A DNA stretch of 54,951 nucleotides from Synechococcales cyanobacterium bin31.maxbin.ball.101 (lineage in GTDB: Bacteria; Cyanobacteriota; Cyanobacteriia; Leptolyngbyales; Leptolyngbyaceae). Made by a program: the position numbers and the translations under genes. Position 1 is the stretch's first letter. Each line of letters opens with the position of its first letter. Positions 9,283 through 40,553 of the stretch are shown here, piece after piece. The stretch lies in the NCBI GenBank assembly GCA_013298165.1, contig JAAFJU010000017.1, forward strand, positions 1-54,951, in the 5' to 3' direction. The notes beneath the pieces are model-generated. The model saw only the letters and a program-made list of their open reading frames with translations, was not told the origin of the DNA and ran no database searches.

Positions 9283-9515
9283 GGCTTTCTCCAGAAAACT
9301 TGCGATCGGGCTGGGGTTATGCCTCGATCGGGGAAATGTATTATGATTTGTCTGGAGAGTCTGACGAGGGGTTGGACTTGCGATCGGCATTTAGCATTTT
9401 TGGAGACTAGCCCGCTTTGATCGGGTGCTAGTTGGGAGTCATGTAGGGCGAGGCATCGCAGAATTTTATCTGATGAGCTATATTTAAATCAGTGATAGTC
9501 CTGAGGATAGGCTCA
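9283..9515. other. Gap before the NACHT gene
   Basis: No gene is seen. Bases 9502-9509 (GAGGATAG) give a plausible ribosome binding site for the ATG at 9516. A GTG 24 bases upstream (9492) is in frame but lacks such a site. Confidence 0.5.
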
Positions 9516-12500
9516 ATGCTGGGAAAGCGATCGTTGCAGTTGTTGCTAGTTTTTTGTCTAGTATTTGGGCTGGTGGTGGGATCGGTGGGGTCGATCGGTG
9601 CCCAGACGCCTGAACCGAATTCGCGGGCGGCGGTGGAAGTGGAGATTAAGAAGTATGCGGCGCGGCGTGTCGAGAATGACTTGCCGATGGATACCTCTAC
9701 CGCGATGAAGGTATTTGAGAAGAATGTGGCAAATCTTACGCAGCAGGATGTGGCGACGATTTATGAGGAAGAGTTCGTTAAGCTGAAGAAGGTCAAGGAT
9801 GAGGACTTTTGGGAGCAGGTAAAGCCGAAGGCGGGGTGGATTGTTGCGGCGATGATTACGGTGTTTGCGTTGTTTCAAGGGAAGCTGAAGGCGTGGGTCG
9901 AGAACATTGTTGGGGCGATCGAAAAAGGGATTTATCAGCGGTTGTCGGGGACGAAGTTCTTTCGGAATGTGGCGTTGAGGAAATATCGATCGGCATTGGT
10001 GGAGAAGCATCAGTCGTTGAAGATTCCGTTTCGTCCTAATCGTCCGTTGGACTTGGCGGGGATTTATGTGCCGTTGAAGGTGGCAGGGAACCGGACGGAG
10101 CCTTCTGTGGAGGCGTTACAGGTGATTCGGGATTGCCGGAAGTTGATGGTGAAGGGGCAGCCGGGATCGGGGAAGACGATCTTGCTGAAGTATTTGGCGT
10201 TGAATTATGGGTTGGGGGAGTTGCGACTGAAGGATGACCCGATCGTGATTCTGTTGGAGTTACATCGGTTGAGTGGTGGGGTTGAGGTGTTGCCTGCGTT
10301 GGTGGATGCGTTGGAGCGGGATGATTTTCCCAATGGGACGAAGTTTCTGGAACAGGCGTTGGATGCGGGGCGGGTGGTGTTATTGCTGGATGGGCTGGAT
10401 GAGGTGAATACCAGCGATCGTCCATCGGTGGTGAAGCGGATTAAGGATTTTTTCGATCGCTATGGCAAGTGTGGGGTGGTGATTACCTGTCGATCGCAGG
10501 TGTATCAAAATGAGTTCGTTCATTTGGTCGATCAGACGTGGGAGGTGGTAGAGTTTACGGATGCGCAGATTCAACAGTTTTTGCGGTCTTGGAAGGCGGA
10601 GATGCCTCCAGAGAAGTCGGTACAGCAGTTATTGCAATCGCTGCGCAATCGGCCTCGGATTAAGGAGTTGGCGCGGAATCCGTTGCTGTTGACGATTATT
10701 GCCTATTTGTATTGTGATGCGCGGTTTGAATTGCCGCATTCACGATCGGAGTTTTATAAAGAATCTACTCGCATTTTATTGAGTGCTTGGGATCGAGAGA
10801 GAGAGACTGAAACACCGAATCGGTATAAGGAATTGACGAAGCGATCGGTGTTGCAGCATTTAGCGTTGTTTGCTCAGGATGGGACGGGCGATCGGAAGAC
10901 GCTGAGTCGTCAAGATGTGATGGCGCAGGTGAAGGCGGTGTTGCTGGGATTGAATTTCGATGCAGATCGGGATGTGGAGCCGATTCTCAATGAGTTGGTG
11001 GAGCGGAGTGGATTGCTATTAGAGATTGATCGTGGGGCGCGGTATCAGTTTAGTCATTTGACGTTGCAGGAGTTTTTTGCGGCGGGGGCACTTGCCGATC
11101 GATCGACTGATCTGATTCAACGAGTTGAGAGTGATCCTGATGCTTGGCGTGAGGTGGTGAAACTTTGGTGTGGTTTGGCAAATGATTCGACAGCGGTGAT
11201 TCGGCAGATTTATATCAGTCAGCCTGTGATGGCGTTTGAATGTTTGGCGGATGCTCAGAATGTGGATGCGGCCTTGGCGGATGAGATTATCGATCGGTTT
11301 CAACAACAGATTGGACAAACAGGGCAAGATCCATCAGTGGGTCTTGCATTCGCAGCGGTTGCAGCCGATCTGAGACCACGAGGACGGCAGGTATTTCAGT
11401 TCTTAGCAGATGCGTTGGAGCAGCCTGGTGATGAGGCTAGTCAGATGACGATTATGACTGGATTGTCTCTGACGAATCTTCCTCAAGCGGCAAAAGCATT
11501 GTGCCAGAATTATTGTGAAATCAGTACGCTACATCGTAGTGCAATTACCCGTATGGGAGATGTCGCAGTTCCTGAATTATCAAAATTAATTGAGGTTGGA
11601 GGCTCTATTTCAATTAATGCACTGAACGATTTAATAAGTATTAGGACTCCTGATGCGGTTCAGATGATGGTCCCGTTGCTGTGGCATAAGCATCCTGATA
11701 TTGCAGGGAGGACAGCGTGGTATTTAGCGGATTTTTTACGTGATTTAGATATGGAAGCGGCATTCCATGAAATCAAGTTAACATCGGAACAAAAGGGTTC
11801 CCCTGAATGGAGTTGGGTTTGGGAGCCATTTTCAGTACCTAAAGATTCCTCATTGCCAGAAATCGCATCTAAAATAGCAGATATACTCTCAAGTTATCCA
11901 TTGACTCATCGGCTTTTGGCTGTTCCAACCTTACGTTTCGTTGTACCAATTTGTGCATTCTCAAAAGAACTAACAGAGAATCTACCAAAAACATTATCTG
12001 ATGAAGCTGAAGACTTATGCCGTTCAATAGGAAAGAATGATGATCCAGATCGTTCAGAGCAATCTAAGAAATTGTTAGAAGAGTTAGTGAAAGGTATACC
12101 TTCTGAGGCAATCAGTCGAAAATTATTGAGTTCTTATAATCCACAATTTCAGCTTCGTTTCTTAAACTGCCTAGTTACCGATCGTAAGGCAAAACAGAGA
12201 GATTGGCTAAATTTGCATCGGCGAGTAAAGTATGATTTTCAAAATGGTTGGCACTATCGATTAGTTTTGAGTGTTGCGGTGATGACTTCGATCGCGGCTT
12301 TAATCGAAATGTTTTATTTACCGTTTCAAGCACAGGAGCAATGGACGAGTTGGTTGGTTGCCGCACCCGCATTCATTGTGGTTATGAGCTGGCTATTCCT
12401 ATGGCAGGGAATTGAGGCTCGGTTAGAATCTGACCTTTTTTGGAAGTTCGCTGTATTTGGTTCGATTAGATTCTGGCTTGAAGTTGTAAATTTACTAAAA

Positions 12501-13028
12501 TATAAAACTGTTTGGGACATCGTAGAACCACTGGCTAATTTTATTCGTAATGGAATTAAGCCTTTTCTAAGTGCAGTCTCAGTTCTAGTTTTAGTACCAG
12601 ATAACCCTGTCATCGCAGCGGAGCCTAATCCTGCCATCACAGAAGCGGTTAACGCAGAGATGAGGAGAGCGCCTAAAGCGCAGTCATTCCTCTCTCATGC
12701 TTTTCTGATGGGCATGACTATCTCGGTAGCCTTAGTCTCAGTTTCAAGCATGGGACTTTTGTGTTGGAAGTCTTCTCGATCAACTCCAGATTACAAACGA
12801 TATTTTGCGATCTTTTCTTACCCACTTTTCTGCGCTTTCCCGATCGTCCTGATCTACAGTTCCCTAGCACTCCACAACTTCTTCCCTTGGCAAACCGTCG
12901 TCCTCATCTGGTTGACCATCATCACCGTCTGCACCCTCCTCTGGCAGCGCGGACAAAAGCTCGATAGAGCCGCTCGAAATCCCTTCCAAAAAATCCTTGC
13001 GGGGTATTACGAGATGCGATCCCCCTAG
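9516..13028 (+). CDS. Membrane-anchored NACHT STAND ATPase with C-terminal membrane domain
   Basis: A 1170-residue signalling ATPase. Order of parts: a signal-like hydrophobic stretch at residues 5-28; an exported-looking segment to about 105; a membrane helix at 108-124; the linker LVEKHQSLKIPFRPNRPLDL, which precedes NACHT in many cyanobacterial proteins; Walker A GQPGSGKT near 214-221; Walker B VVLLLDGLDEV near 287-297; a winged-helix and sensor region ending in YQFSHLTLQEFFAAGAL. HEAT-like helices follow (about 550-890), then four to five membrane helices near 914-932, 942-960, 1058-1085, 1095-1118 and 1127-1148. NACHT proteins oligomerise on sensing a ligand. No separate effector domain is visible, so the membrane segments may be the effector. 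The start is chosen by its ribosome binding site. The gene stands alone. Confidence 0.88.
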   Translation: MLGKRSLQLLLVFCLVFGLVVGSVGSIGAQTPEPNSRAAVEVEIKKYAARRVENDLPMDTSTAMKVFEKNVANLTQQDVATIYEEEFVKLKKVKDEDFWEQVKPKAGWIVAAMITVFALFQGKLKAWVENIVGAIEKGIYQRLSGTKFFRNVALRKYRSALVEKHQSLKIPFRPNRPLDLAGIYVPLKVAGNRTEPSVEALQVIRDCRKLMVKGQPGSGKTILLKYLALNYGLGELRLKDDPIVILLELHRLSGGVEVLPALVDALERDDFPNGTKFLEQALDAGRVVLLLDGLDEVNTSDRPSVVKRIKDFFDRYGKCGVVITCRSQVYQNEFVHLVDQTWEVVEFTDAQIQQFLRSWKAEMPPEKSVQQLLQSLRNRPRIKELARNPLLLTIIAYLYCDARFELPHSRSEFYKESTRILLSAWDRERETETPNRYKELTKRSVLQHLALFAQDGTGDRKTLSRQDVMAQVKAVLLGLNFDADRDVEPILNELVERSGLLLEIDRGARYQFSHLTLQEFFAAGALADRSTDLIQRVESDPDAWREVVKLWCGLANDSTAVIRQIYISQPVMAFECLADAQNVDAALADEIIDRFQQQIGQTGQDPSVGLAFAAVAADLRPRGRQVFQFLADALEQPGDEASQMTIMTGLSLTNLPQAAKALCQNYCEISTLHRSAITRMGDVAVPELSKLIEVGGSISINALNDLISIRTPDAVQMMVPLLWHKHPDIAGRTAWYLADFLRDLDMEAAFHEIKLTSEQKGSPEWSWVWEPFSVPKDSSLPEIASKIADILSSYPLTHRLLAVPTLRFVVPICAFSKELTENLPKTLSDEAEDLCRSIGKNDDPDRSEQSKKLLEELVKGIPSEAISRKLLSSYNPQFQLRFLNCLVTDRKAKQRDWLNLHRRVKYDFQNGWHYRLVLSVAVMTSIAALIEMFYLPFQAQEQWTSWLVAAPAFIVVMSWLFLWQGIEARLESDLFWKFAVFGSIRFWLEVVNLLKYKTVWDIVEPLANFIRNGIKPFLSAVSVLVLVPDNPVIAAEPNPAITEAVNAEMRRAPKAQSFLSHAFLMGMTISVALVSVSSMGLLCWKSSRSTPDYKRYFAIFSYPLFCAFPIVLIYSSLALHNFFPWQTVVLIWLTIITVCTLLWQRGQKLDRAARNPFQKILAGYYEMRSP

Positions 13029-20299: not shown

Positions 20300-21253
20300 A
20301 TGCCGAAGAAAAAGAGTTTAGATGCTCGTCTTTACGATGCTCTAATAAATCAAAAAATAGAAGAAATCAGGGAATGTGTAGAGGATGGATTTGACCTCAA
20401 TCAGGTGGTTCCCAAACTAAATCTCACTTCTTTTGAGTTTGCGACTCAGTTAGGATTTCGCCCTATTCTTAGACTACTGATTGATTTGGGTTTTCAACCT
20501 AGTTTTCAAGAGACAAATTTAGCTTTGATGTTCTCAGCATCATTCGGAGATCCAGATCTTACTCAGATCTTTCTCAACTTAGGCGGCGATGTAAATTACT
20601 CTCTCTTGGAGTACACCCTGCTGATTGCCACAATAGATAGGTCGTTCAACCCGTACGATCTACAAGTTTCAAAAATACTGATTGAATCAGGAGCCGATCT
20701 TGAAATACAGGGTAAATATTCCAATACTGCACTGACAACAGCAATTTTTAACAAAAAGAAGAAAATTATTAATCTGCTTTTAGAAAAAGGAGCTTCAGAA
20801 GAACAGTCTAATAGTGCTTATCTTCTGCAAGAATCCAAGAGTACAAATTGCAATTTAAAGAAAATAAATAAATTGTTAGAAAAGGGAGCAAATATTGATT
20901 TTCAAAATACCGAAGGTTATTCACCCATTCATTTGGCTTCAGGTTTTGGATCTAATAGTTTAGTTCAGTTGCTGATTAGTGCGAATGCAAATTTGAATAT
21001 TCGATCAGAAAATGGTTTCATACCCATTATGACTGCTATTCAGCGCAAAAATTTAGATATTATTAAAATGCTGCTTGTTTCAGGTGCAGATACTAATTGT
21101 ATCCTTAACGAATATCAGCACAATATAGTCGATTACGCTTATGATACATTAATTGACTCTGAAGTTAAGTATCAAATTTTACGAGTACTTAAAGAATGTC
21201 AGGCTCCAGCCCCATCATTGCCAAAATATAAAAAAATGTGGCTAAAGGTGTAA
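20300..21253 (+). CDS. Ankyrin-repeat protein
   Basis: A 317-residue soluble protein made of about eight ankyrin repeats: KILIESGADLEIQGKYSNTA, LLEKGANIDFQNTEGYSPIH and KMLLVSGADTNCILNEYQHN show the GADxNxxxxxGxTPLH pattern. There is no signal peptide or catalytic domain. The gene is AT-rich (many Ile and Asn codons of A/T type) compared with neighbouring core genes, which suggests recent acquisition. GGAG precedes the ATG. Ankyrin proteins bind partner proteins; the partner is not evident. Confidence 0.85.
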   Translation: MPKKKSLDARLYDALINQKIEEIRECVEDGFDLNQVVPKLNLTSFEFATQLGFRPILRLLIDLGFQPSFQETNLALMFSASFGDPDLTQIFLNLGGDVNYSLLEYTLLIATIDRSFNPYDLQVSKILIESGADLEIQGKYSNTALTTAIFNKKKKIINLLLEKGASEEQSNSAYLLQESKSTNCNLKKINKLLEKGANIDFQNTEGYSPIHLASGFGSNSLVQLLISANANLNIRSENGFIPIMTAIQRKNLDIIKMLLVSGADTNCILNEYQHNIVDYAYDTLIDSEVKYQILRVLKECQAPAPSLPKYKKMWLKV

Positions 21254-24793: not shown

Positions 24794-27700
24794 ATGAAAA
24801 CGGTCAAGGTTGTGGGCTGGATGACTGGGTTGCTGTTGCTGGTGAGCGCTCCGATCGCCGCGATCGGCTTCTCCATGGAACCCACGATCGCCCAAGCTCA
24901 AACAACTGACCAAACCGCCATCGTAGCCGAAGCCACCCGCCTGTCGGATGAAGCCTTTAAGCAATATCAAATGAGTCGCTTTGAACCTGCGATCGTCCTA
25001 TGGCAGCAAGCCCTACCCCTCTATCGCCGCATTGACGACAAAATCAGCGAGGGTCGTGTCCTGGGTGGAATTGGGTCGGCTTATAACGGTCTCAGTCAAT
25101 ATGATCAAGCCCTGGACTATCAGAATAAACGTTTGGCATTGGCCAAAGCCTCGGGCGATCGACGTGGCGAAGGTCGGGCGTTGGGGCATTTGGGTGAGAT
25201 CTATGAGAACTTATCGGAATATGAAAAAGCCATTGATTATCAAAACCAAAGTCTAGCGATCGCCCTAGAACTCAACGATCGTCAAGCTGAACAAAAAGCA
25301 TTGGGCAATCTAGGCATTAACTACTTCTCATTGGCACAATATCCAAAGGCCATGGAATATCAAAACAAAAGTCTTGCGATCGCCTTAGAACTTAAAGATC
25401 GAGTCGGTGAACTGAAAGCCTTAGGTCAACTGGGTCATAATTACTTTTCGATTAGTCAATACGAAAAAGCCATTGAATTCCAAGAAAGAAGTCTCGCGAT
25501 CGCCCTGGAAATCAAGGACAGGCGCGGTGAAGGGAATGCTTTAGGCAACTTAGGTTTGAACTATTATGCATTGAATCAATATCCCAAAGCGATCGACTAT
25601 TACCAGCGTCGCCTTGTGATTGCCTTAGAAATTAAAGATAAACGCGGTGAAGGCAATGCCCTGGGAAATTTGGGATTGGCGTACTATGCCAGTAATGAAC
25701 CGCAGAAGGCGATCGAATATCATTTGCGGCGGATTGCAGTGTCCCGATCGATTAAAGATCTGCGCGGCGAAGGTCAGTCCTTGGGCTATTTGGGGAACAC
25801 CTACTTCTCTTTGAGTGACTACGCCAAAGCGATCGAATATCAAGAACAAAGCTTGGAGATTGCGCGCAAAATTAAAAACAAACAAACAGAAGGAAAGTCT
25901 TTAGGCTATTTAGGGAACACCTACTTCTTTTTAGGTAACTACGCCAAAGCCGTCGAATACCAATCCAAGAGTTTAGATATTGCCCGTGAAATTAAAGATG
26001 GACGAGGTGAAAGTCAGTCTCTGGGTTACTTAGGACTGACCTACCATGCCATGGGAAACTATGCCAAAGCCATTGAATACCATCAACAGCGATTGCCGAT
26101 CGCCCGTGCCATTAAAGACCGTCGCGGAGAAGCCAATACCTTCGCTAACCTCGGGTTGACCTATCATGCTCTGGGTCAGGAAAGCAAAGCATTGGAGGCT
26201 TATGAAAAGAGTTTGGTGATTACGCGTGAGATTAAATCGAAGCGTCGGGAAGGCAGTGTCCTGGGAAGCTTAGGTGTGACCTATGAAGCCATGGGGGACT
26301 ATGAAAAAGCGATCGACTATCACGAACAAAGTTTGGCGATCGCCCGTGATTTGAAAGATAAGGAGGCAGAGGGAATTGCGCTGAATAATATGGGCGCGAC
26401 CTTGGTGCTGCAAAAACAACCCGAATTGGCGATCGTCTTTTATAAGCAATCGGTGAATGTACGCGAAGGTATTCGTAAAAAGATTGACAAACTCGATCGA
26501 GATTTACAAGAATCCTATACCCAAACCGTTGCCAGTACCTATCGGACTCTCGCTGATTTACTTTTAACCCAAGGCCGTGTGCTAGAAGCGCAGCAGGTTT
26601 TGGAATTACTTAAAATCCAGGAATTACGCGACTATACACGCGATACCCGCACAGGCGGCGAAACTCAGGGCAGTCCCTTAAATCCGATCGAACAGCCGAT
26701 TCCTGCTGCGGTGAATGATAAAATTACGATCGGCAGTCAATTAACGCAATGTGAAAAAAACAATTGCGCTCAACTGAATCAATTGGTTTCCGATCGTAAA
26801 AACTCGGCTCAAAAATTGGCTGCGCTAGTCGATCGGCTAAAAGATGTCCTCCGTCAGCAAGAACTGTCTGATCCTGCCCAATTGCAAAGCGATAATCTCA
26901 CTGCCGCCGCCAAAAAGATCATTCTCGCCAACCCCAACAGCAAAACCGTCCTCGTCTATCCCCTCGTCCTAGAAGACAAGCTGTGGCTGGTGTGGGGAAG
27001 TCAAGCGGGAAAATCAGAGGTCATTTTCGATAAAAAAGAAGTCAAGGTCAGCCGCCAAAAGCTCTCCGAAACAGTCGGAAAACTGCAATCTCTCCTGAGC
27101 GATCGGTACAGTCATAATGCTCAAGATATTCAAGAATTACAAGCCACCAGCCAACAGCTCTACCAATGGCTGATTGAACCCCTGCGCGGTCAACTCAATC
27201 AAAATGGGGTCAAACAAATCGTCTTTTCCCTCGATCGGGCCACCCGCTATATTCCCATGGCATCCCTCCACGATGGCAAACAGTATTTAATCGAAAACTT
27301 TGCTATCTCCACCATCCTCACCGCCGACACGGATACTAAATCTAAGCTTTCTCCTCGCCTTCAAGACAATCCCATTCTGGGTTTAGGTCTCACCCAAGCG
27401 GTCTCTGGCTTTGACCCGCTCCCAGCAGTGAAAGGAGAACTGGACGGCATTATCCAAACGACGGGGCTGTATCCCGGCATTAAGCTTTTCGATCGGGACT
27501 TTACCGAAACATCACTCCGCAAAAATATGAATGCCCACCGCATTTTACATATTGCAACCCATGGGCAATTTGTTGCAGGAAATCCTGAAGATTCATTCCT
27601 GATGCTGGGGGACGGGAGCAAACTGAGCATTCCCAATATCAAAAGTATGACGGATCTTAAAAATACGCACCTCGTCGTCCTTTCGGCTTGTGAAACAGGC

Positions 27701-28003
27701 AAAGGAGGCGTCAATAAAGAGGGCATTGAAGTGGCTGGAATGGGCCATTACTTCCTGCTCGGTGGTGCCAAATCAGTGATGCCATCTCTCTGGCTCGTGA
27801 ATGATCCAGCCACGAGTTTATTAATGCGAGAGTTCTATCGTCGGCTCTCCCTAGGCAGCACCAAAGCTGAAGCCCTGCGCCAAGTCCAGATTGATTTTAT
27901 TGCTGGAAAGCTCACCCCCAAAGAGAATCCTGATGAGATAGCTTCTAATTTCAAACATCCCTACTATTGGGCACCGTTTATCTTAATTGGGAATAGCCAA
28001 TAG
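24794..28003 (+). CDS. Exported TPR-CHAT protein A
   Basis: A 1069-residue protein. A signal peptide (MKTVKVVGWMTGLLLLVSAP, cleavage near AQA at 37) is followed by about twelve 40-residue TPR units (such as LGYLGNTYFSLSDYAKAIEY, period 120 bases). A linker comes next, then the C-terminal CHAT domain from about residue 770. CHAT is a caspase-like Cys protease fold, and its two catalytic motifs are seen: HIATHG (His923) and VVLSACETGKGG (Cys966), 43 residues apart. The ATG has GAGG six bases upstream and is preferred to the GTG 12 bases earlier. It is the first of three exported caspase-fold genes on this strand. TPRs probably sense a ligand or partner; the substrate is unknown. Confidence 0.92.
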   Translation: MKTVKVVGWMTGLLLLVSAPIAAIGFSMEPTIAQAQTTDQTAIVAEATRLSDEAFKQYQMSRFEPAIVLWQQALPLYRRIDDKISEGRVLGGIGSAYNGLSQYDQALDYQNKRLALAKASGDRRGEGRALGHLGEIYENLSEYEKAIDYQNQSLAIALELNDRQAEQKALGNLGINYFSLAQYPKAMEYQNKSLAIALELKDRVGELKALGQLGHNYFSISQYEKAIEFQERSLAIALEIKDRRGEGNALGNLGLNYYALNQYPKAIDYYQRRLVIALEIKDKRGEGNALGNLGLAYYASNEPQKAIEYHLRRIAVSRSIKDLRGEGQSLGYLGNTYFSLSDYAKAIEYQEQSLEIARKIKNKQTEGKSLGYLGNTYFFLGNYAKAVEYQSKSLDIAREIKDGRGESQSLGYLGLTYHAMGNYAKAIEYHQQRLPIARAIKDRRGEANTFANLGLTYHALGQESKALEAYEKSLVITREIKSKRREGSVLGSLGVTYEAMGDYEKAIDYHEQSLAIARDLKDKEAEGIALNNMGATLVLQKQPELAIVFYKQSVNVREGIRKKIDKLDRDLQESYTQTVASTYRTLADLLLTQGRVLEAQQVLELLKIQELRDYTRDTRTGGETQGSPLNPIEQPIPAAVNDKITIGSQLTQCEKNNCAQLNQLVSDRKNSAQKLAALVDRLKDVLRQQELSDPAQLQSDNLTAAAKKIILANPNSKTVLVYPLVLEDKLWLVWGSQAGKSEVIFDKKEVKVSRQKLSETVGKLQSLLSDRYSHNAQDIQELQATSQQLYQWLIEPLRGQLNQNGVKQIVFSLDRATRYIPMASLHDGKQYLIENFAISTILTADTDTKSKLSPRLQDNPILGLGLTQAVSGFDPLPAVKGELDGIIQTTGLYPGIKLFDRDFTETSLRKNMNAHRILHIATHGQFVAGNPEDSFLMLGDGSKLSIPNIKSMTDLKNTHLVVLSACETGKGGVNKEGIEVAGMGHYFLLGGAKSVMPSLWLVNDPATSLLMREFYRRLSLGSTKAEALRQVQIDFIAGKLTPKENPDEIASNFKHPYYWAPFILIGNSQ

Positions 28004-28012
28004 ACAAAGCTT

Positions 28013-28117
28013 ATGCGATCGAACCTCTTTGCTTCTACGTTCGCGATCGTATTGGGTGTCATGAGTCCGATCGTCGGTGAAATTGATAATGTGATACGAT
28101 CGTATTCCGCTTTCTGA
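28013..28117 (+). other. Possible stub of a TPR-CHAT signal peptide gene
   Basis: A 34-codon frame begins MRSNLFASTFAIVLGVMSPI, like the start of the TPR-CHAT gene at 29399 (MRSKVVASGLSIVLGLAG), and the preceding AAGCTT-ATGCGATCGAA matches too. The opposite strand can instead read TIANVEAKRFDR, matching the minus-strand remnant at 29127-29297. The two readings compete. Confidence 0.35.
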
Positions 28118-28125
28118 TTTGGATT

Positions 28126-29070
28126 ATGACTAAAATTCGTGCTGACGAAGATTCGCCTTGGAAACTCCTTCTCCGCAAGTACTTTCGGGAAGCGATCGAA
28201 TTCTTTTTCCCTACGATCGCCCATTTAATTGATTGGACGAAAGCGGTCGAATTCCTTGATACAGAGTTCCAAAAAATTACGCCCGATGCAGAAATTGGAA
28301 AACGCTTTGCAGACCAGCTTGTCAAAGTTCAACTTAAAAAGGGGAAAGCGCTAATTCTACTGATACACCTGGAAATCCAGGCAGTACCTGAGAAAAACTT
28401 CCCAGAGCGGATGTTCATCTATGCAATCCGTATCTTTGAACTCTTTCATCAACTCCCGGTGAGTTTAGCGATTTTGTGTGATGGGAAAAAGGATTGGCGA
28501 CCCAGTGCCTACAGTTTGACCACACCCGGTAGCGCTCTCCAATTTGATTTCACAGCAGTGAAGTTATTGGACTATGAGACGCAGTGGAGCCAATTGGAGC
28601 AGAGCCGGAATCCTTTCGCAGTTGTGGTGATGAGCCATTTGAAAACCAGGGAAACCAAAGGCAGTGCGATTGATCGAAAAGCCTGGAAGCTCAGATTGGT
28701 GAAACGGTTGTACGAGTTGGGGTATAGCCGATCGGAAGTCTTGAACCTTTTTCGATTTGTCGATTGGGTTATGATATTACCAGAAGGTCTCAAGCGGACA
28801 TTCTGGGACGAGTTAAAAACTTACGAGGAGGACCGTAAAATGCCGTACATCACCAGCGTTGAAGAAATTGGGTACGATCGTGGACTTGAGCAGGGCGAAC
28901 GATCGCTAGCTTTACTTCTGTTGAATCATAAATTTGGACAGATACCCGATCGCACGATCGATCAAATTAAAGCCTTATCCATTCCCAAAATTGAATCCCT
29001 CAGTAAGGCATTACTCGATTTTAATGCGATCGAAGACCTGACGACTTGGCTTAAAACTCACTCAGGCTGA
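28126..29070 (+). CDS. Rpn-type nuclease-like protein with C-terminal DUF4351
   Basis: A 314-residue protein. The N-terminus (SPWKLLLRKYFREAIEFFFP) leads to EFLDTEFQKITPDAEIGKRF and ALILLIHLEIQAVPEKNFPE. These carry a D-x-E and a LIHLEIQ strand as in the PD-(D/E)XK fold of Rpn proteins. HLKTRETKG marks the middle. The end, from about residue 255, is DUF4351 (LLLNHKFGQIP, LLDFNAIEDLTTWLK). It is a paralogue of 39621-40553. It lies between the two TPR-CHAT genes on the same strand, but may have its own promoter. The role is unknown. Confidence 0.75.
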   Translation: MTKIRADEDSPWKLLLRKYFREAIEFFFPTIAHLIDWTKAVEFLDTEFQKITPDAEIGKRFADQLVKVQLKKGKALILLIHLEIQAVPEKNFPERMFIYAIRIFELFHQLPVSLAILCDGKKDWRPSAYSLTTPGSALQFDFTAVKLLDYETQWSQLEQSRNPFAVVVMSHLKTRETKGSAIDRKAWKLRLVKRLYELGYSRSEVLNLFRFVDWVMILPEGLKRTFWDELKTYEEDRKMPYITSVEEIGYDRGLEQGERSLALLLLNHKFGQIPDRTIDQIKALSIPKIESLSKALLDFNAIEDLTTWLKTHSG

Positions 29071-29126
29071 CATATGTTCGTTCGCGAAGCATCGGGTTTC
29101 CCGAATCGCCCCAGAACTAGACCCCA

Positions 29127-29297
29127 TTAGCTATCCACCAGAAGGAACTCCACCATGCGGTCGAACTTCTTTGCCTCTACGTTAACGATCGTCCCACGCC
29201 CCAAAGCCCGATCGAATTTATTCTTCACAACGGCATAAGGAAGGATCTCCGTTAGTGCAATCTTCCAGAACGGTAATCGCCCGTGCTTCTGAGGGAT
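29127..29297 (-). pseudogene. Unidentified coding remnant in the 29 kb gap
   Basis: After a TGA the minus strand stays open for 56 codons to TAA, without a start. The peptide (RLPFWKIALTEILPYAVVKN, then FDRALGRGTIVNVEAKKFDR, ending MVEFLLVDS) looks genuinely coding. The core TIVNVEAKKFDR recurs as TIANVEAKRFDR near 28015-28050. I do not know the family. The remaining 100 bases up to 29398 hold an AGGA ribosome binding site for the next gene and nothing else I can name. Confidence 0.45.
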
Positions 29298-29398
29298 TCA
29301 GGACAATTTAAGAGTAAATCAGAGAATTTTGCATAAGTTATTCTCCGATCGAGCTATAGTGTCACTGTTCCTAATTATTGCTCCGGCAGGAAAAGCTC

Positions 29399-32300
29399 AT
29401 GCGATCGAAGGTTGTTGCGTCAGGACTATCGATTGTGTTGGGGTTGGCGGGGGTGAGTGCGATTCTCCAGGGGAGAGCCTTCGCCAACGGGTTTCCTGAG
29501 GTGGCTGCAGCTCAGTCAGTAGAAGCACGAAAGGCAGAAGCACTACGATTATTGCAACAAGGGATACAGCAGTATCAGTCAAAGCAAACGGATGCAGCAC
29601 TTCAGTCTATTTTGCAATCCCTGAGCATTTATCGTGAGATTAGAGATCGTAAATCTGAAGGGTTGGTATTGTTACTCTTAGGCACTTATGATAATAATCC
29701 TGCTCGTCAGGCTAAAAAATTTGAATATCTAGAGCAAGCATTGGTAATTGCTCGTGAACTCAAAGAACGAGAAAATGAAGGAATAATTTTAGCAATGTTG
29801 GGAGCGTCTTATTCATCCCTTGAAAATCGTGTTAAGGCGCTGGAATATTTGGAGCCAGCTTTAGTTATTGCCCGTGAACGTAAAGATCAAAAACTGGCAC
29901 AGATAATCTTAGGATCGCTAGGTCTGGCTTATATATCTCTTCGGAATTATGATAGAGCCGTTGAATATCTAGAGTCAAGTTTAGTAATTGCCCGTGAACT
30001 CAAAGATGGAAATAGTGAGATGATGATATTGCCACAGCTAGGAACTGCCTACTCCTACATTGGTGACATGACTAATGCTATTAAATATCTAGAACCAGGT
30101 TTAAGTCTTGCGCGTGAGAAACAGGATAAATCTGGTGAAATTCTAGCCTTAATTGGTTTAGGAAATAGTAACTTATCTCTTGATAGATATGAAAAATCTA
30201 TTGAATATTATCAACAAAGTTTGACAATCGCTCGTGTTGAAAAAAATCAACTTCTTGAATTACTAGCATTGGGTGGCTTGGGAGGTGCTTACGCTAATCT
30301 TGGCAATTATGACAAAGCGATCGAATTTCATGAGCAGAGTTTAACGATTGCTCGTGAATCCAAAAATCGACTTATGGAAGGATACGGACTCAATAATTTA
30401 GGAAGCCTCTACGCGACTCTCGGAGACTACCCAAGAGCTATTGATAATCAAAAGAAAGGTCTGGCGATCATGCAAGAAATTAAGAGTCGCCAGTCAGAAG
30501 GTATTGTCCTGTCTAGTCTAGGGAGTACTCACTATTCGACTGGCAACTATGATGAATCAATGAAATATTATCAGCAAAGTTTGGAGATTTCGCGTGAATT
30601 TAGAGATAAATCACTTGAGTTACGCTCTCTAGGAGGCATCGGAATTGCTTATTTCGGCTTAAAAAATTATACAAAAGGAATTGAATATCAAGAGCAGTCT
30701 TTAGTCGCTTCTCGTATAGCTAAAAGCACAACTGGCGAAGGATATGCGTTAGGGCATCTAGGTCAGAACAATCAAGGATTAGGAAACTATACTAAAGCGA
30801 TCGATTACTATCGGCAGGGTCTAACCTTAGCAAAGGAAATCAACTATCCAGAAGGTCAACGACTTGCGCTAGATAGAATGGCATCTGCTTGGAAAGCACA
30901 GAAAAAGCCAGAACTCGCGATCACTTTCTATAAGCAGTCTGTCAATATCGCTGAATCCCTGCGCAAGAATGTTAGAAAACTGCCCAGAGAAGCGCAGGAG
31001 ATCTATACCAGCTCAATTGCTAGCACCTATCGTGTTCTTGCAGATCTTCTGTTGACTCAGGGACGATCGCGGGAAGCTCAATCAATTTTAGAATTACTGA
31101 AAGTCCAGGAAGCTAGTGGCTACGAAAAAGCTCAGGAAACAAACTCATCGATCGTCCAACTCCCACTCCATCCCATAGAAACCCAAGCCCTCCAAGCTTT
31201 TGAAAAGACGATCGCATCCAAACAACCCCTCACCGCAGAAACCTTAAATCCGATCGAACAACCCCTTACCCAAAACCGCGATCGGATCACGCAAGACATG
31301 AACGCCATGCCGATCGCGATCGGTAATCCCCAAGCTGTTCTCAAGGCAAACCCCAACGCATTACTCATCCAAAATCTAGTCATCAATGATAAGCTCTGGG
31401 TTCTCTGGACGAATGCGAGTGGTAACACAAAAGCGATCGTCGTCCCCAACGTCAAGCAAACGCAACTCGACGAAACCGTCAAAACCTTCCGAAGCCAAAT
31501 CGGAGATCCCAGAAGCAATCTAAATACCCTCAAAGCCACCAGCACCCAACTCTACAACTGGCTCATCCCCACCGAACTCCAAGCCGAACTCAAAAATAAT
31601 CCTAAACAACAACTCCTCTTCTCCCTCGATCACGTCACCCGATACATCCCCGTTGCAGCGCTTTACGACGGAAACCAATACCTCGCCCAACGCTACACCC
31701 TGTCTAATTTAATCACCGTAGACATTGACGTGCGCGATCGGCTCTCCCCCGACGGCAGCGCACCCACCATCCTCGGACTCGGCACCACCCAAGCCTACCC
31801 AGGATTTTCTGAATTGCCCAACGTCAAAGCTGAACTCAAAGCGATCGTCAAAGACAACACAGACTTGGGAATCTATCCCGGCAAAATCCAACTTGACAAT
31901 GCCTTCACCGCCAACAGCCTCAGCCAAAACCTCGATCCCTATCGTGTCCTCCACATCGCCACCCACGGCAGCTTCAACCCCAAAAGCATCACCGCTTCCT
32001 TCCTGCTTCTTGGGAATGGCGATCGCCTCCCGATTACGTCGATCGCCTCTCTAAAAAACCTGACCAACACCCACCTCGTCGTCCTCAGCGCCTGCGAAAC
32101 CGGACTGAGCGGTGCAGGTCAAGACGGCACCGAAATCTCCGGCATCGGCGGCTACTTCCTCCGTCGCGGAGCCAAATCCGTCCTAGCCTCCCTCTGGTCT
32201 GTAAACGACGCCAGCACCGCCCTCCTCATGCAACAGTTTTATCAAAACCTCTCCCAATCCAAACTCACCAAAGCCCAATCCCTCCAAAAAGTCCAACAAG

Positions 32301-32443
32301 ACTTCATCTCCGGCAAGTTCACCGCCAAGGAAGCTACAACGATCCGTGCCGTCAGACCTTACATTGAAGGTCAAGCCCCACCCGACTCCTTCGTTCACCC
32401 CTACTTCTGGGCACCCTTCACCCTCACCGGAAACCCGAACTGA
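29399..32443 (+). CDS. Exported TPR-CHAT protein B
   Basis: A 1014-residue protein of the same plan as protein A: signal peptide (SKVVASGLSIVLGLAGVSAI), eleven 40-residue TPR units (such as LGSTHYSTGNYDESMKYYQQ), and a CHAT domain with HIATHG (His856) and LVVLSACETGLSG (Cys899), again 43 residues apart. The ATG at 29399 is preceded by AGGA and begins the signal peptide. The TPR part is AT-rich while the CHAT part is GC-rich. The two proteins are diverged paralogues. It is followed after 131 bases by the orthocaspase gene, on the same strand. Confidence 0.92.
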   Translation: MRSKVVASGLSIVLGLAGVSAILQGRAFANGFPEVAAAQSVEARKAEALRLLQQGIQQYQSKQTDAALQSILQSLSIYREIRDRKSEGLVLLLLGTYDNNPARQAKKFEYLEQALVIARELKERENEGIILAMLGASYSSLENRVKALEYLEPALVIARERKDQKLAQIILGSLGLAYISLRNYDRAVEYLESSLVIARELKDGNSEMMILPQLGTAYSYIGDMTNAIKYLEPGLSLAREKQDKSGEILALIGLGNSNLSLDRYEKSIEYYQQSLTIARVEKNQLLELLALGGLGGAYANLGNYDKAIEFHEQSLTIARESKNRLMEGYGLNNLGSLYATLGDYPRAIDNQKKGLAIMQEIKSRQSEGIVLSSLGSTHYSTGNYDESMKYYQQSLEISREFRDKSLELRSLGGIGIAYFGLKNYTKGIEYQEQSLVASRIAKSTTGEGYALGHLGQNNQGLGNYTKAIDYYRQGLTLAKEINYPEGQRLALDRMASAWKAQKKPELAITFYKQSVNIAESLRKNVRKLPREAQEIYTSSIASTYRVLADLLLTQGRSREAQSILELLKVQEASGYEKAQETNSSIVQLPLHPIETQALQAFEKTIASKQPLTAETLNPIEQPLTQNRDRITQDMNAMPIAIGNPQAVLKANPNALLIQNLVINDKLWVLWTNASGNTKAIVVPNVKQTQLDETVKTFRSQIGDPRSNLNTLKATSTQLYNWLIPTELQAELKNNPKQQLLFSLDHVTRYIPVAALYDGNQYLAQRYTLSNLITVDIDVRDRLSPDGSAPTILGLGTTQAYPGFSELPNVKAELKAIVKDNTDLGIYPGKIQLDNAFTANSLSQNLDPYRVLHIATHGSFNPKSITASFLLLGNGDRLPITSIASLKNLTNTHLVVLSACETGLSGAGQDGTEISGIGGYFLRRGAKSVLASLWSVNDASTALLMQQFYQNLSQSKLTKAQSLQKVQQDFISGKFTAKEATTIRAVRPYIEGQAPPDSFVHPYFWAPFTLTGNPN

Positions 32444-32470
32444 AGGACGATCGTTCATCCATCAATACCG

Positions 32471-32524
32471 GGCTTCGACTCCGCTCAGCCCTCAATCTTC
32501 GTAGGATGAGCGGAGTCGTAGCTT
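32471..32524. repeat. Hairpin repeat between TPR-CHAT B and the orthocaspase gene
   Basis: CGACTCCGCTCA (32476-32487) is followed after 19 bases by its exact reverse complement TGAGCGGAGTCG (32507-32518). It is a dispersed element of a common cyanobacterial type. It has no T-run, so it is a poor terminator. It could also stabilise the end of the upstream message. Confidence 0.65.
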
Positions 32525-32574
32525 GCGTCCGTAAGGACTAGCCTAAACCCAATTCAAAAACTCCCCCAAAAATC

Positions 32575-34797
32575 ATGAAACGTCGCCACTTTCTCCAAGC
32601 TGCTAGCACCACTCTCGGTACTCTCGGACTGAGCCAACTCGACTTCCTCACCCAAGCCGATCGCACCCACCAAGTCCTCGCCCAGCCTGGATCTCGAAAA
32701 CTTGCACTCCTTGTTGGAATCAATGGCTATACCATCAGTCCATTAAATGGATGTCTGACAGATATTGAAATGGAATATGAATTGTTGAGATATCGCTACG
32801 GATTTAATCCCGCAGATATTCTGATCCTCACCGACAACACCACCGCAAAACCCACTCGTAACAACATCCTCACCGCCTTTGAAGAACACCTAATCAAACA
32901 AGCTAAACCCGGTGACACCGTAATTTTCCATTACTCCGGTCATGGATCCCTCGTCTTTGACCCAGAACCCATTCCCACTTATGTGTCTAACGGCAAGGGC
33001 TTTAACGGAACCCTCGTCCCCATGGACGTTGACGCTAACAATCGCAACGACATCATGGGCAAGACCCTCTTCCTACTTAGCAGCCAAGTCAACACCGACA
33101 ACTTCACCATGGTTCTCGATAGCTGTCACTCCGGTGGTGGTACAAGGGGCAATCATATTGTCCGATCGCTCCCACGCCTCAATAAAGCAGAACCCACTGC
33201 ACAACCCAGTACAGCAGAACTGAATTACCAAGAACAACAGATGCGAAAATTGGGTCTAACCCGTGAAAAACTACTCCAACTTCGCACAAAAGGTATTGCT
33301 AAAGGCATCGCGATCGGAGCTGCTAAAGCCAACCAATATGCCGTCGATGCAAGCTTTGGTGACTTCTTCGCAGGTGCATTAACGTACCTATTTACGCGCT
33401 ACCTCTGGCAACTTCCCGGCAAAGAAGACATCACCACCACCTTCGATCGTCTCGCCCTCATCACCCAAGAACTTGCCGCCACATCCGGCCAGACCCAAGA
33501 ACCCATTAAAGACACCGCGATCGGCTCCCCCCTAGCCAATGCCCCCGTCTATAACCTAATCCCAACCCGCCCTAGCGCTGAAGGCGTCATCCGATCGACT
33601 AACAGTCCTAATCAAAAAGGACTCATTGAATTTTGGCTCGGGGGTGTCTCAGAAACCACTCTTAAAGGCTTTGCAGCAGGGAGCTTATTTACCTTAATTA
33701 ATGACCAAGGTAAACCGATCGGAGAACTTGAACAAACTGCCCGAGCAGGTCTCGTCGGCTACGGTAAACTCAAATCTGGAAACCTGCCAAAACCCGGCAC
33801 ACTGCTCCGTGAAAAACTGCGTAACTTGCCCAGCGACATTACTCTGACGATCGGACTGCATGAAAGTCTAGGAGACGATCGTATAGCTTACGCAAACGCA
33901 CTCAATGCGATTCCCCAAGTGTCCGCCATTCCGATTAATCAGCAGAGCGCCGTCAACTTTATCATCGGTCGCCTCACGGATGAAGCTAGAGAATCCGGTA
34001 CAACAAAAAACATCATCATTAGCCAACCCAATGATTCGATCGGACTATTTACCGCAGGTTACAATCCGATCGATAGCAATTTATTTGGTCGATTAAATGA
34101 ACCCGTTTCACAAGTCATCGATCGGCTACGTCCTAGACTCAAAATGTTTCTGGCCCGTGAATACTTGACTCGAATGGTGAATGGTAACGCCTCTGAACTC
34201 AAAGTAGACGTCCTATTCAAATCCCAAGGTCATACCCAAACCCTTTCGAACGGCGGTACTCGATCGACCGAATCATCGCGTCCACAACCCTACAAAATCA
34301 GTCCAAATCCTAAAACCCCAACCCGTCTCGATATCAGTCTTACCAACCAAGAAGACAATGTGATCTACACCAGCGCCATTCACATTGCACAGGATGGTGT
34401 CATGACCATTCTGCATCCTAGTGATTGGAACTCTCCCGAAGCAGCGGCGGCGATCAAGCCTCGCACCACCCAGGTCATTCCATTAGAAGTCATTCCGCCC
34501 GCTGGATACTCAGAAGTCCTTGTCATCACCAGTGCCTCACCCTTGCGCGATTCTCTCAAAGGTCTCCAGACGATCGCCCGAGGTCGTGGCATGACAGGTC
34601 GATCGGCGACGGGATATCTCTCCTTTGATACGGCGAGCCGCGCTGGGGATGAAGCCGAAGATAGCCCTATCAGCGTCACCCGAAACCTAGTCGCCGATCT
34701 CACCCGCGCCCTCGGTCCTGCTGGACAATCTAAAATCCGAGGACTAAACGCAAATCAATGTGCTATCTATTCTCAAATCATTCAGACGATCGACTAA
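32575..34797 (+). CDS. Exported orthocaspase (peptidase C14) with DUF4384-like tail
   Basis: A 740-residue protein. It starts with a twin-arginine-like signal (MKRRHFLQAASTTLGTLG). Residues about 42-310 are the caspase-fold p20-like domain, with FHYSGHGS (His123) and LDSCHSGGG (Cys184), the dyad of bacterial caspase homologues that cut after Arg or Lys. FFAGALTYLFTRYLW follows. The long C-terminus includes beta-rich segments and a region (IYTSAIHIAQDGVMTILHPS) like DUF4384, often found after caspase domains. The catalytic dyad is intact. It follows two TPR-CHAT genes in tandem and may be their target or partner. Confidence 0.9.
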   Translation: MKRRHFLQAASTTLGTLGLSQLDFLTQADRTHQVLAQPGSRKLALLVGINGYTISPLNGCLTDIEMEYELLRYRYGFNPADILILTDNTTAKPTRNNILTAFEEHLIKQAKPGDTVIFHYSGHGSLVFDPEPIPTYVSNGKGFNGTLVPMDVDANNRNDIMGKTLFLLSSQVNTDNFTMVLDSCHSGGGTRGNHIVRSLPRLNKAEPTAQPSTAELNYQEQQMRKLGLTREKLLQLRTKGIAKGIAIGAAKANQYAVDASFGDFFAGALTYLFTRYLWQLPGKEDITTTFDRLALITQELAATSGQTQEPIKDTAIGSPLANAPVYNLIPTRPSAEGVIRSTNSPNQKGLIEFWLGGVSETTLKGFAAGSLFTLINDQGKPIGELEQTARAGLVGYGKLKSGNLPKPGTLLREKLRNLPSDITLTIGLHESLGDDRIAYANALNAIPQVSAIPINQQSAVNFIIGRLTDEARESGTTKNIIISQPNDSIGLFTAGYNPIDSNLFGRLNEPVSQVIDRLRPRLKMFLAREYLTRMVNGNASELKVDVLFKSQGHTQTLSNGGTRSTESSRPQPYKISPNPKTPTRLDISLTNQEDNVIYTSAIHIAQDGVMTILHPSDWNSPEAAAAIKPRTTQVIPLEVIPPAGYSEVLVITSASPLRDSLKGLQTIARGRGMTGRSATGYLSFDTASRAGDEAEDSPISVTRNLVADLTRALGPAGQSKIRGLNANQCAIYSQIIQTID

Positions 34798-39620: not shown

Positions 39621-40553
39621 TTAGTCCTCTAGCCAATGGATGAGTTCTTCGATCGAGGTGAAGTCGAGCAGTGCTTCCCCAAGAGATTCCAGTTGTTCGA
39701 TCGATAAGCTCGAAATCTGATCCTCGATCGGGCCTTGCAGTTCCCCGAACCGACGAGCCAGTTGCCGTTGCACCATCGATCGGGCTTGTTTTGCTTCACC
39801 TCGGGCTTCGGCTCTTCGTTCTATGGTGGTGACGTACTTCATCTTTTGGGTCTCCTCAAAGGCTTCTAATTCGTGATCGAACTCTTGCGATAACGTCTCT
39901 GGGAGCGTCATCATGAAATCTAGGAAGTTGTACAGCTCCAATATATCCTGTTTCTTATAGCCCCGCTTATACAGCATGGTCGTGAGTCGAAACTTCCAGG
40001 CTTTTCGGGACTCAGGATTATTATGGGTTTCCTTCGTTTTCAAATGGGCCATGGTGACGATGGCGAAGGGGTTGTCGTTTGTTTCGAGGGCGTCCCAATC
40101 CGCTGCATAATCTAAAAGTTTGACCATTGGGAATTCAAAGTGAATCGAGCAGCCCCATCGAGAGCTTTCATAGTGATTGGGTCGCCAATGGGGAGAGTCG
40201 TCGCCCAAAATGGCAAGGCTTACGATGGGGCAGTTGTAGCGATCGTCCAATCGGTAGTTGTAAAACAGCATTCGTTTGGGAAAGATGGCTTCTTGCTGGC
40301 TTTGAACTTCAATGTGACAGATTACCAGTGCATCTTTGCCATCTATGGTGCGAACTTGGACGAGTTTGTCGGCATACCGTTTTCCCATTTCGCCATCTCG
40401 GACGATTTTTTGGAGTTCTTGGTCAAGAAATTTCGGTGGGTAGGTCCAGTCGATTTCGGCTTCGATTGCGGGAAAGTAGAACTGCATAAATGCTCGGAAA
40501 AATAATTCAATGATCGACTTCCAGGGCGAATCGAACTCTGCATTAGGCGTCAT
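39621..40553 (-). CDS. Rpn-type nuclease-like protein with C-terminal DUF4351
   Basis: A 310-residue protein, paralogous to 28126-29070. It begins with SPWKSIIELFFRAFMQFYFP; LDQELQKIVRDGEMGKRYAD and ALVICHIEVQSQQEAIFPKR carry the acidic and E-x-Q core of the Rpn-like nuclease fold. AIVTMAHLKTKETHNNPES lies in the middle. DUF4351 ends it (VQRQLARRFGEL, LLDFTSIEELIHWL). No catalytic Lys is obvious after the Glu, so it may be inactive. It stands alone between rpsP and a Uma2 gene. Confidence 0.75.
   Translation of the reverse strand: MTPNAEFDSPWKSIIELFFRAFMQFYFPAIEAEIDWTYPPKFLDQELQKIVRDGEMGKRYADKLVQVRTIDGKDALVICHIEVQSQQEAIFPKRMLFYNYRLDDRYNCPIVSLAILGDDSPHWRPNHYESSRWGCSIHFEFPMVKLLDYAADWDALETNDNPFAIVTMAHLKTKETHNNPESRKAWKFRLTTMLYKRGYKKQDILELYNFLDFMMTLPETLSQEFDHELEAFEETQKMKYVTTIERRAEARGEAKQARSMVQRQLARRFGELQGPIEDQISSLSIEQLESLGEALLDFTSIEELIHWLED

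Follow-up and report, generated by a model that had tools for sequence, protein, structure and literature searches.

What does a catalytically intact cyanobacterial orthocaspase work with, and in which compartment? Cyanobacterial orthocaspases have long been discussed in the context of programmed cell death, and to our knowledge few of their partners are known. The question arises from a stretch of 54,951 nucleotides (hereafter the window: contig JAAFJU010000017.1, assembly GCA_013298165.1, of Synechococcales cyanobacterium bin31.maxbin.ball.101), in which the genes for two TPR-CHAT proteins and an orthocaspase lie on one strand. A first interpretation made from the DNA letters (the sequence-only reading) described these as three exported caspase-fold proteins encoded in a row and proposed that the CHAT proteases act on the orthocaspase. 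Here, we report that TPR-CHAT genes recur on the same strand directly beside active orthocaspase genes in other cyanobacteria. Together with the export signals that both kinds of protease bear, this suggests joint action of active orthocaspase and TPR-CHAT protein outside the cytoplasm, perhaps in the form of a protease relay. Papers are cited by PubMed Central number, each for the part of its text that was available to us.

Recurrence of TPR-CHAT genes beside active orthocaspases

A locus was counted if it held a full-length active orthocaspase with more than 1 kb of DNA on both sides, and it was scored as paired if a TPR-CHAT gene lay on the same strand within 500 bp. Among relatives of the window's orthocaspase (the first set), 23 of 31 loci were paired, in 15 of 19 genera, with 15/22 in the window's family and 8/9 in other families. 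A motif-picked set gave 3/24, and a follow-up set from other genomes, taken after the hypothesis had been formed, gave 11/27. Occurrence of the gene order in other cyanobacteria had been set beforehand as the test on which the sequence-only reading could fail, and in the pool 37 of 82 active loci have the pairing. TPR-CHAT genes on the opposite strand within 500 bp were seen at 0/31, 3/24, and 0/27 loci, respectively, or 3 in the pool against 37. Widening the distance to 3.5 kb gave same-strand versus opposite-strand counts of 23 versus 0 (first set), 7 versus 5 (motif-picked), and 12 versus 3 (follow-up), and the ring from 3.5 to 7 kb, seven times as wide as the 500-bp zone, held a same-strand CHAT gene at 6/31 loci of the first set and 7/27 of the follow-up set. 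The chance expectation for the first set is about 0.13, a rough figure, since the per-genome CHAT counts behind it are lower bounds (at least about 33).

Two controls were examined by the same measure. No same-strand TPR-CHAT gene was found within 500 bp of 35 pseudo-orthocaspase genes or of 18 caspase-fold genes from like genomes that lack a twin-arginine translocation (Tat) type N-terminus. The corresponding Fisher p values for the pool, 1.2e-7 and 9.7e-5, overstate the significance because loci that are not independent were counted as independent. Strand bias, distance, and both controls led us to reject chance neighborhood for the pooled loci; the motif-picked set taken alone has no strand bias. 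When neighbors were clustered without knowledge of their domains, a TPR-CHAT-like cluster lay within 6 kb of 43/64 active and 2/36 pseudo loci. When loci at contig edges are counted as well, 16 of 99 active loci have two or more TPR-CHAT genes in one run with the orthocaspase, and several intergenic gaps are under 50 bp or negative, the genes overlapping (starts taken from the longest open reading frame, ORF). Mapping the presence of a CHAT neighbor onto the orthocaspase tree requires nine changes.

The sets were assembled as follows. The first search took 76 regions among the matches listed, with fragments and weak places mostly left out; its 41 active rows, less 10 that were short or had a flank of less than 1 kb (including L150, which has an adjacent CHAT gene), leave 31, and this set may be enriched because its query came from two CHAT-adjacent orthocaspases. 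The pseudo control is 37 rows less 2. From 33 motif-picked loci, 6 at an edge or short, 2 copies, and L039, which was not scored as a caspase, were removed. The follow-up set comprised 40 places in newly drawn genomes scoring above about 560 bits among the matches listed, with N-termini not checked for Tat, less 4 copies and 9 at an edge or short (including L201, L206, and L217, with adjacent CHAT genes). The non-Tat control is 24 genes less 6 near an edge; in 10 of the remaining 18 a simple pattern search finds the two dyad motifs.

Active and pseudo-orthocaspase families

In a tree of 73 rows, orthocaspases related to that of the window form two families separated by one branch with a Shimodaira–Hasegawa-like approximate likelihood ratio test (SH-aLRT) value of 100. 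The active family carries the motifs H[FY]SGHG and D[SC]C, and the pseudo family mostly has Tyr, Phe, or Leu for the His and Ser or Gly for the Cys. Active rows were picked by their dyad, so that its conservation among them holds by definition; the split in the tree is independent of that choice. The window's orthocaspase lies on the active, His-Cys (HC) side of the branch and, having kept its dyad, is outside the YS pseudo-orthocaspases. Its H123, C184, D63, and D182 are each present in 72/72 ungapped active rows, placing it among the active orthocaspases; D63 and D182 are putative pocket residues, judging from the metacaspase alignment and PMC6426788. An RRxFL motif within the first 60 residues, our measure of a Tat-type N-terminus, is found in 29/31 counted active (the exceptions being L100 and L113) and 28/35 counted pseudo-orthocaspases. 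The orthocaspase of Phormidesmis priestleyi ULC007 (L046) is identical in sequence to that of a genome of the window's family (G023).

The pseudo family fits two earlier descriptions, one of a mutated family present in one copy (Jiang 2010, PMC2853523) and one of a YS family whose N-terminus is Tat-like (PMC6426788). In 13 of 36 pseudo loci there is a neighboring ATP-sulfurylase-like gene, identified by its sequence and not by a profile, matching the ATP-sulfurylase operons of PMC3501461. In two members (L129 and L132) the Cys is kept and Tyr replaces the His, and in a third (L152) the His is kept and the Cys lost; these are perhaps intermediate stages of dyad loss.

Integrity and lineages of the neighboring CHAT proteins

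The CHAT tree and dyad check used the first two locus sets together with some CHAT proteins of the window's own genome. The His-Cys dyad is kept in 29/29 orthocaspase-adjacent CHAT domains versus 44/47 non-adjacent ones. Clustering of adjacent CHAT domains on the tree is only slightly above that of shuffled labels, 23 of 500 shuffles being as low. The domain of CHAT A, the first CHAT protein of the window, groups with L113_1 and L046_3, which belong to cassettes in two further genomes; one of these is P. priestleyi (L046), where the order on one strand is CHAT, CHAT, orthocaspase, CHAT.

The genome that includes the window (as contig C342) comprises 5.39 Mb in 356 contigs and has 34 CHAT and 4 Peptidase_C14 matches, all above cut-offs. 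Because TPR-CHAT genes are this abundant, only some can belong to a cassette. Tat-type N-termini are found in two of its four caspase genes, each located inside a TPR-CHAT cassette, one in the window and one on contig C240 (CHAT of 1170 aa, 24 bp, orthocaspase of 684 aa, 86 bp, CHAT of 1662 aa). The two non-Tat caspase genes (L002 and L003, the latter near a contig edge) have no CHAT gene within 3.5 kb. A fifth, weak caspase (C100, L151; 64 bits) entered no count. On different contigs of this genome, the CHAT domains of L005 and L001:11798-16786 differ very little, with end branches of 0.016 and 0.031, which is likely a recent duplication of a cassette TPR-CHAT gene.

The cassette in the window

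Genes of the cassette are listed in Table 1. Counted from the two ATG codons given there, the catalytic residues named in the sequence-only reading for both CHAT proteins and the orthocaspase are reproduced exactly. Export signals on all three, which that reading had also claimed, agree with our inspection of the sequences, made without SignalP: the CHAT proteins begin with Sec-like signals, a hydrophobic core followed by AQA (A) or AFA (B), and the orthocaspase with an apparent twin-arginine signal (MKRRHFLQ). Of the claim that the three genes lie in a row, the shared strand holds and strict succession does not, for an Rpn/DUF4351 ORF parts CHAT A from CHAT B. This ORF is bracketed by two imperfect copies of a 38-bp direct repeat (at 28013-28050 and at 29155-29192, 32/38 identical), which suggests an insertion, and is probably outside the module; the local score of the repeat is 56, against a maximum of 27 among 200 shuffles.

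Table 1. Cassette genes and their catalytic residues, in positions of the window
Gene	Position	Strand	Details
TPR-CHAT A	24794..28003	+	1069 aa counted from ATG 24794; Sec-like signal peptide; His923 27560-27562; Cys966 27689-27691
Rpn/DUF4351 ORF	28126..29070	+	between CHAT A and CHAT B; Pfam DUF4351 1.7e-18; TIGR01784 under its cut-off
TPR-CHAT B	29399..32443	+	1014 aa counted from ATG 29399; Sec-like signal peptide; His856 31964-31966; Cys899 32093-32095
Tat-type orthocaspase	32575..34797	+	740 aa; His123 32941-32943; Cys184 33124-33126; loop 185-207; Arg191 33145-33147

Both CHAT proteins match Pfam CHAT (PF12770) far above the cut-off of 24 bits, A with 209.4 bits (1e-61) and B with 203.4 bits (6.8e-60), and have numerous TPR matches. 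The orthocaspase matches Peptidase_C14 (7.2e-17; 62.3 bits, cut-off 21.4), with H123 held in HYSGHG and C184 in LDSCHS; at its C-terminus DUF4384 stays under the curated cut-off (25.2 versus 27 bits). Elsewhere in the window there are a second DUF4351 ORF (39621-40553), an ankyrin-repeat protein upstream of the cassette (20300-21253), and a 1178-aa NACHT-domain protein (9492-13028, + strand), another conflict- or death-type protein on the contig.

Predicted structures

The AlphaFold2 model of TPR-CHAT B (mean predicted local distance difference test, pLDDT, 82.4) is a long TPR superhelix with a CHAT domain. Its best fold matches are TPR-only proteins (Z up to 30.2), and matches to the TPR part include binders of peptides or proteins, namely LGN, Rap, and NprR. 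Across both domains it matches Csx29 (Z 26.6, root-mean-square deviation (rmsd) 6.8, 599 residues), followed by separase (Z 24.0, 303 residues), so that the kinship to Csx29 put forward in the sequence-only reading is borne out at the level of the predicted fold. The orthocaspase model (mean pLDDT 77.2) is best matched by type II metacaspases, among them Arabidopsis metacaspase 4, aligned over 253 residues (Z 24.5, rmsd 3.6), and Arabidopsis metacaspase 9; the C-terminal half was barely probed by the fold search. Directly after Cys184, the loop 185-207 is disordered in the model (pLDDT below 50). Within it, Arg191 is present in 72/72 ungapped active rows versus 7/37 ungapped pseudo rows; Arg197 is conserved in both families. 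Arg191 is therefore a candidate maturation site of the orthocaspase.

Other recurring neighbors and searches for known systems

A module of four families, CHASE2/DUF1822/DUF928-like, lies within 6 kb of 8-10 of 64 active and 0/36 pseudo loci; by Pfam its domains are CHASE2, CHAT, and DUF1822, with DUF928 under its cut-off. A CHASE2 protein with a CHAT-like domain, a DUF1822 protein, a DUF928-like protein, and a protein of about 450 aa are found at L023, L036, L038, L042, L101, L103, L109, and L110, and parts of the module at L027, L035, L078, and L095. This module possibly corresponds to the EACC2 systems of Kaur et al. 2021. In a profile search of the genome, which did not extend to the EACC2 domain, contig C342 had no match to CHASE2 or to DUF1822, and with 8-10 of 64 loci and none on the window's contig, the module is rejected as a constant part. 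A further family, including a subtilase (PF00082, scanned in L020 only), lies within 6 kb of 6/64 active and 0/36 pseudo loci (L020, L026, L077, L083, L084, and L102); the scanned neighbors in L020 are a subtilase of 723 aa and a TPR protein of 173 aa. Genes for two-partner secretion (TPS) may lie beside L020 and L024; among scanned neighbors a TPS-domain gene was seen once, in L112.

In line with the sequence-only reading, the searches made gave no sign of a link to CRISPR (clustered regularly interspaced short palindromic repeats). None of 10 direct-repeat families in 18000-40000 resembles an array, although no dedicated CRISPR finder was run, and the larger families are 120-nt TPR units; Rfam at gathering scores found nothing in the window; and the NCBIfam Csx29 model gave the two CHAT proteins 26.8 and 47.8 bits against a cut-off of 300, leaving them outside Csx29. 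Nothing pointing to CRISPR was seen in these repeat, Rfam, and NCBIfam searches, which did not include one for Cas7-11. Membership in a defense system was rejected: for the window's four proteins from the cassette region and for the genome's second orthocaspase, PADLOC gave generic TPR, C3a156, and weak BovA models and a "caspase" model.

A possible protease relay and its alternatives

What the data show is the gene order, how often it recurs, that the dyads are intact, N-termini of export type, the folds as predicted, and residue conservation; the location, interaction, direction, cleavage site, substrates, and purpose described next are our inference. One or more TPR-CHAT proteins would be exported by Sec, and the active orthocaspase, with its type II metacaspase fold, would be exported folded by Tat, so that the two proteases would meet outside the cytoplasm, in the periplasm or possibly the thylakoid lumen. 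A peptide or protein bound by the TPR superhelix would activate the CHAT protease in the manner of Csx29 and separase. Either this protease itself or trans-cleavage that it sets off would then mature the orthocaspase by a cut in loop 185-207, where Arg191 is invariant, and the matured orthocaspase, through an acidic pocket for basic residues, would cut envelope or extracellular proteins. A CHAT-to-orthocaspase cascade is plausible; the whole, an exported two-protease cassette with this sensing and maturation mechanism, is a tentative interpretation to which we give slightly less than even credence. An extension, in which periplasmic sensing TPR-CHAT proteins activate a Tat-exported, metacaspase-type executioner as an extracytoplasmic caspase-clan cascade carrying a death, lysis, or remodeling signal along the filament, appears quite unlikely. 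The periplasm is shared along filaments (PMC12288457), and a cell-to-cell role by this route is conceivable as speculation.

Several observations weigh against the relay. More than half of the active loci (45/82) have no adjacent CHAT gene; the rate varies by group, with 3/14 in group f13 of the follow-up set, and the motif-picked set is weak and free of strand bias (3/24 versus 3/24 at 500 bp; 7/24 versus 5/24 at 3.5 kb). In the window the gene run is interrupted by the Rpn ORF, and a scan for promoter-like and terminator-like sites at the locus was uninformative, their frequency not exceeding that in shuffles. Adjacent CHAT domains are not one clade, the upstream ones requiring 13 changes, of which at least 9 are forced; therefore, many separate events of gain, loss, or exchange lie behind the pairing. 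Several CHAT lineages adjoin orthocaspases, unlike an ancestral enzyme-substrate pair, and because adjacent domains are scattered over the CHAT tree, a single ancestral operon is ruled out. By a simple rule, signal-like N-termini occur in 26/27 adjacent CHAT proteins long enough to judge, but export is not special to them because 34/42 non-adjacent ones have such N-termini as well. Arg191 could equally be self-cleaved or structural because orthocaspases cut after basic residues (PMC6426788). Finally, no data here order the two proteases.

The order could be the reverse, with the orthocaspase activating itself, for example by calcium and self-cleavage after Arg191, and then cutting or releasing the TPR-CHAT proteins as effectors or adaptors. 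Plant type II metacaspases, which the orthocaspase matches in fold, are calcium-dependent. The invariance of Arg191, D63, and D182 in the 72 ungapped active rows and the cleavage after positively charged residues described for orthocaspases (PMC6426788) agree with this order, but the 45 of 82 active orthocaspases that lack an adjacent CHAT gene speak against it, and we regard it as rather unlikely. Alternatively, there may be no direct working link: both families would be plentiful accessory genes that serve the cell surface, stress, or conflict and gather in the same islands, and co-orientation would reflect shared regulation at most. The 34 CHAT matches in this genome, the several lineages of adjacent CHAT domains, and the motif-picked set without strand bias would all be expected on such a view, and pseudo-orthocaspases are an imperfect control for islands because they often lie in conserved surroundings. 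Against it stand the 37 to 3 strand bias within 500 bp over 82 loci, the sparse same-strand CHAT genes in the much wider ring from 3.5 to 7 kb, and the 0/18 among non-Tat caspase genes of like genomes, and we regard this explanation as rather unlikely too. That the cassette is the outer arm of a membrane-signaling branch, with CHASE2/CHAT-like, DUF1822, and DUF928-like proteins (possibly EACC2) signaling inside, accords with the module's occurrence near active and not pseudo loci and with the description of EACC2-caspase proteins that contain CHASE2 and have DUF1822 genes beside them (PMC8195603), but is very unlikely given the module's restriction to 8-10 of 64 loci, its absence by CHASE2 and DUF1822 matches from the window's contig, our own equation of the CHAT-like domain with the EACC2 caspase domain with no EACC2 model searched, and a protein of about 450 aa with no Pfam match that would make it the EACC2 extracytoplasmic function (ECF) sigma factor.

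Under the relay reading or its reverse, the recurrent partner gene supplies a concrete candidate pair of activator and substrate, found in these loci only beside catalytically intact Tat-type orthocaspases, and the pairing directs the search for their site of action to the envelope. If the relay is true, bacteria would have a caspase-fold cascade of two steps that operates outside the cytoplasm. With active orthocaspases often linked to TPR-CHAT genes and one-third of the pseudo ones linked to ATP-sulfurylase, the distinction between the two families can also guide the choice of knock-outs for roles in cell death.

Comparison with known systems

We did not find the orthocaspase/TPR-CHAT pairing described in the open-access literature searched. 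The 2012 analysis of metacaspase operons (PMC3501461) has no "CHAT" in its main text; its supplementary operon tables, which we have not read, may contain some of these loci because proteolysis domains were counted in 23 operons. The available text of PMC8283722 gives one CHAT fusion among 473 orthocaspases and does not contain the word "operon", and PMC7517822 and PMC10907252 describe orthocaspase-like and CHAT domains in a different setting, in proteins diversified by diversity-generating retroelements or in conflict systems.

With active (HC) orthocaspases of family C14 and type II metacaspase fold, the window's protein shares the p20 dyad, D63 and D182, and the predicted folds of metacaspases 4 and 9; it differs in having a Tat signal, a C-terminal extension of about 400 residues (matched by DUF4384 alone, under cut-off), and TPR-CHAT neighbors. 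HetF of Anabaena is a CHAT protein. It is a precedent as a cyanobacterial protease with a known protein substrate, being able to cut PatU3, but it is a divisome protein in heterocyst formation, with no orthocaspase partner mentioned in the available text (PMC12288457). The YS pseudo-orthocaspases (PMC2853523, PMC6426788) are a sister family with Tat-like N-termini, but have lost the catalytic His and Cys, and adjoin an ATP-sulfurylase-like gene in 13 of 36 loci and a TPR-CHAT gene in 0 of 35. EACC2-caspase systems (PMC8195603) share the CHASE2/DUF1822 module found near some active orthocaspases, whereas their EACC2-caspase proteins have variable C-termini, and the window's contig, lacking CHASE2 and DUF1822 matches, does not place the cassette among them. 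Csx29 of Craspase resembles the window's CHAT proteins in its TPR superhelix and CHAT protease, His-Cys dyad, and modeled fold, and differs in that the latter have export-type N-termini, an orthocaspase gene as neighbor, and no CRISPR-like array in sight; it sets the precedent of a TPR-CHAT protease with a protein substrate. The parts of the cassette are known kinds, and the system is not categorically new.

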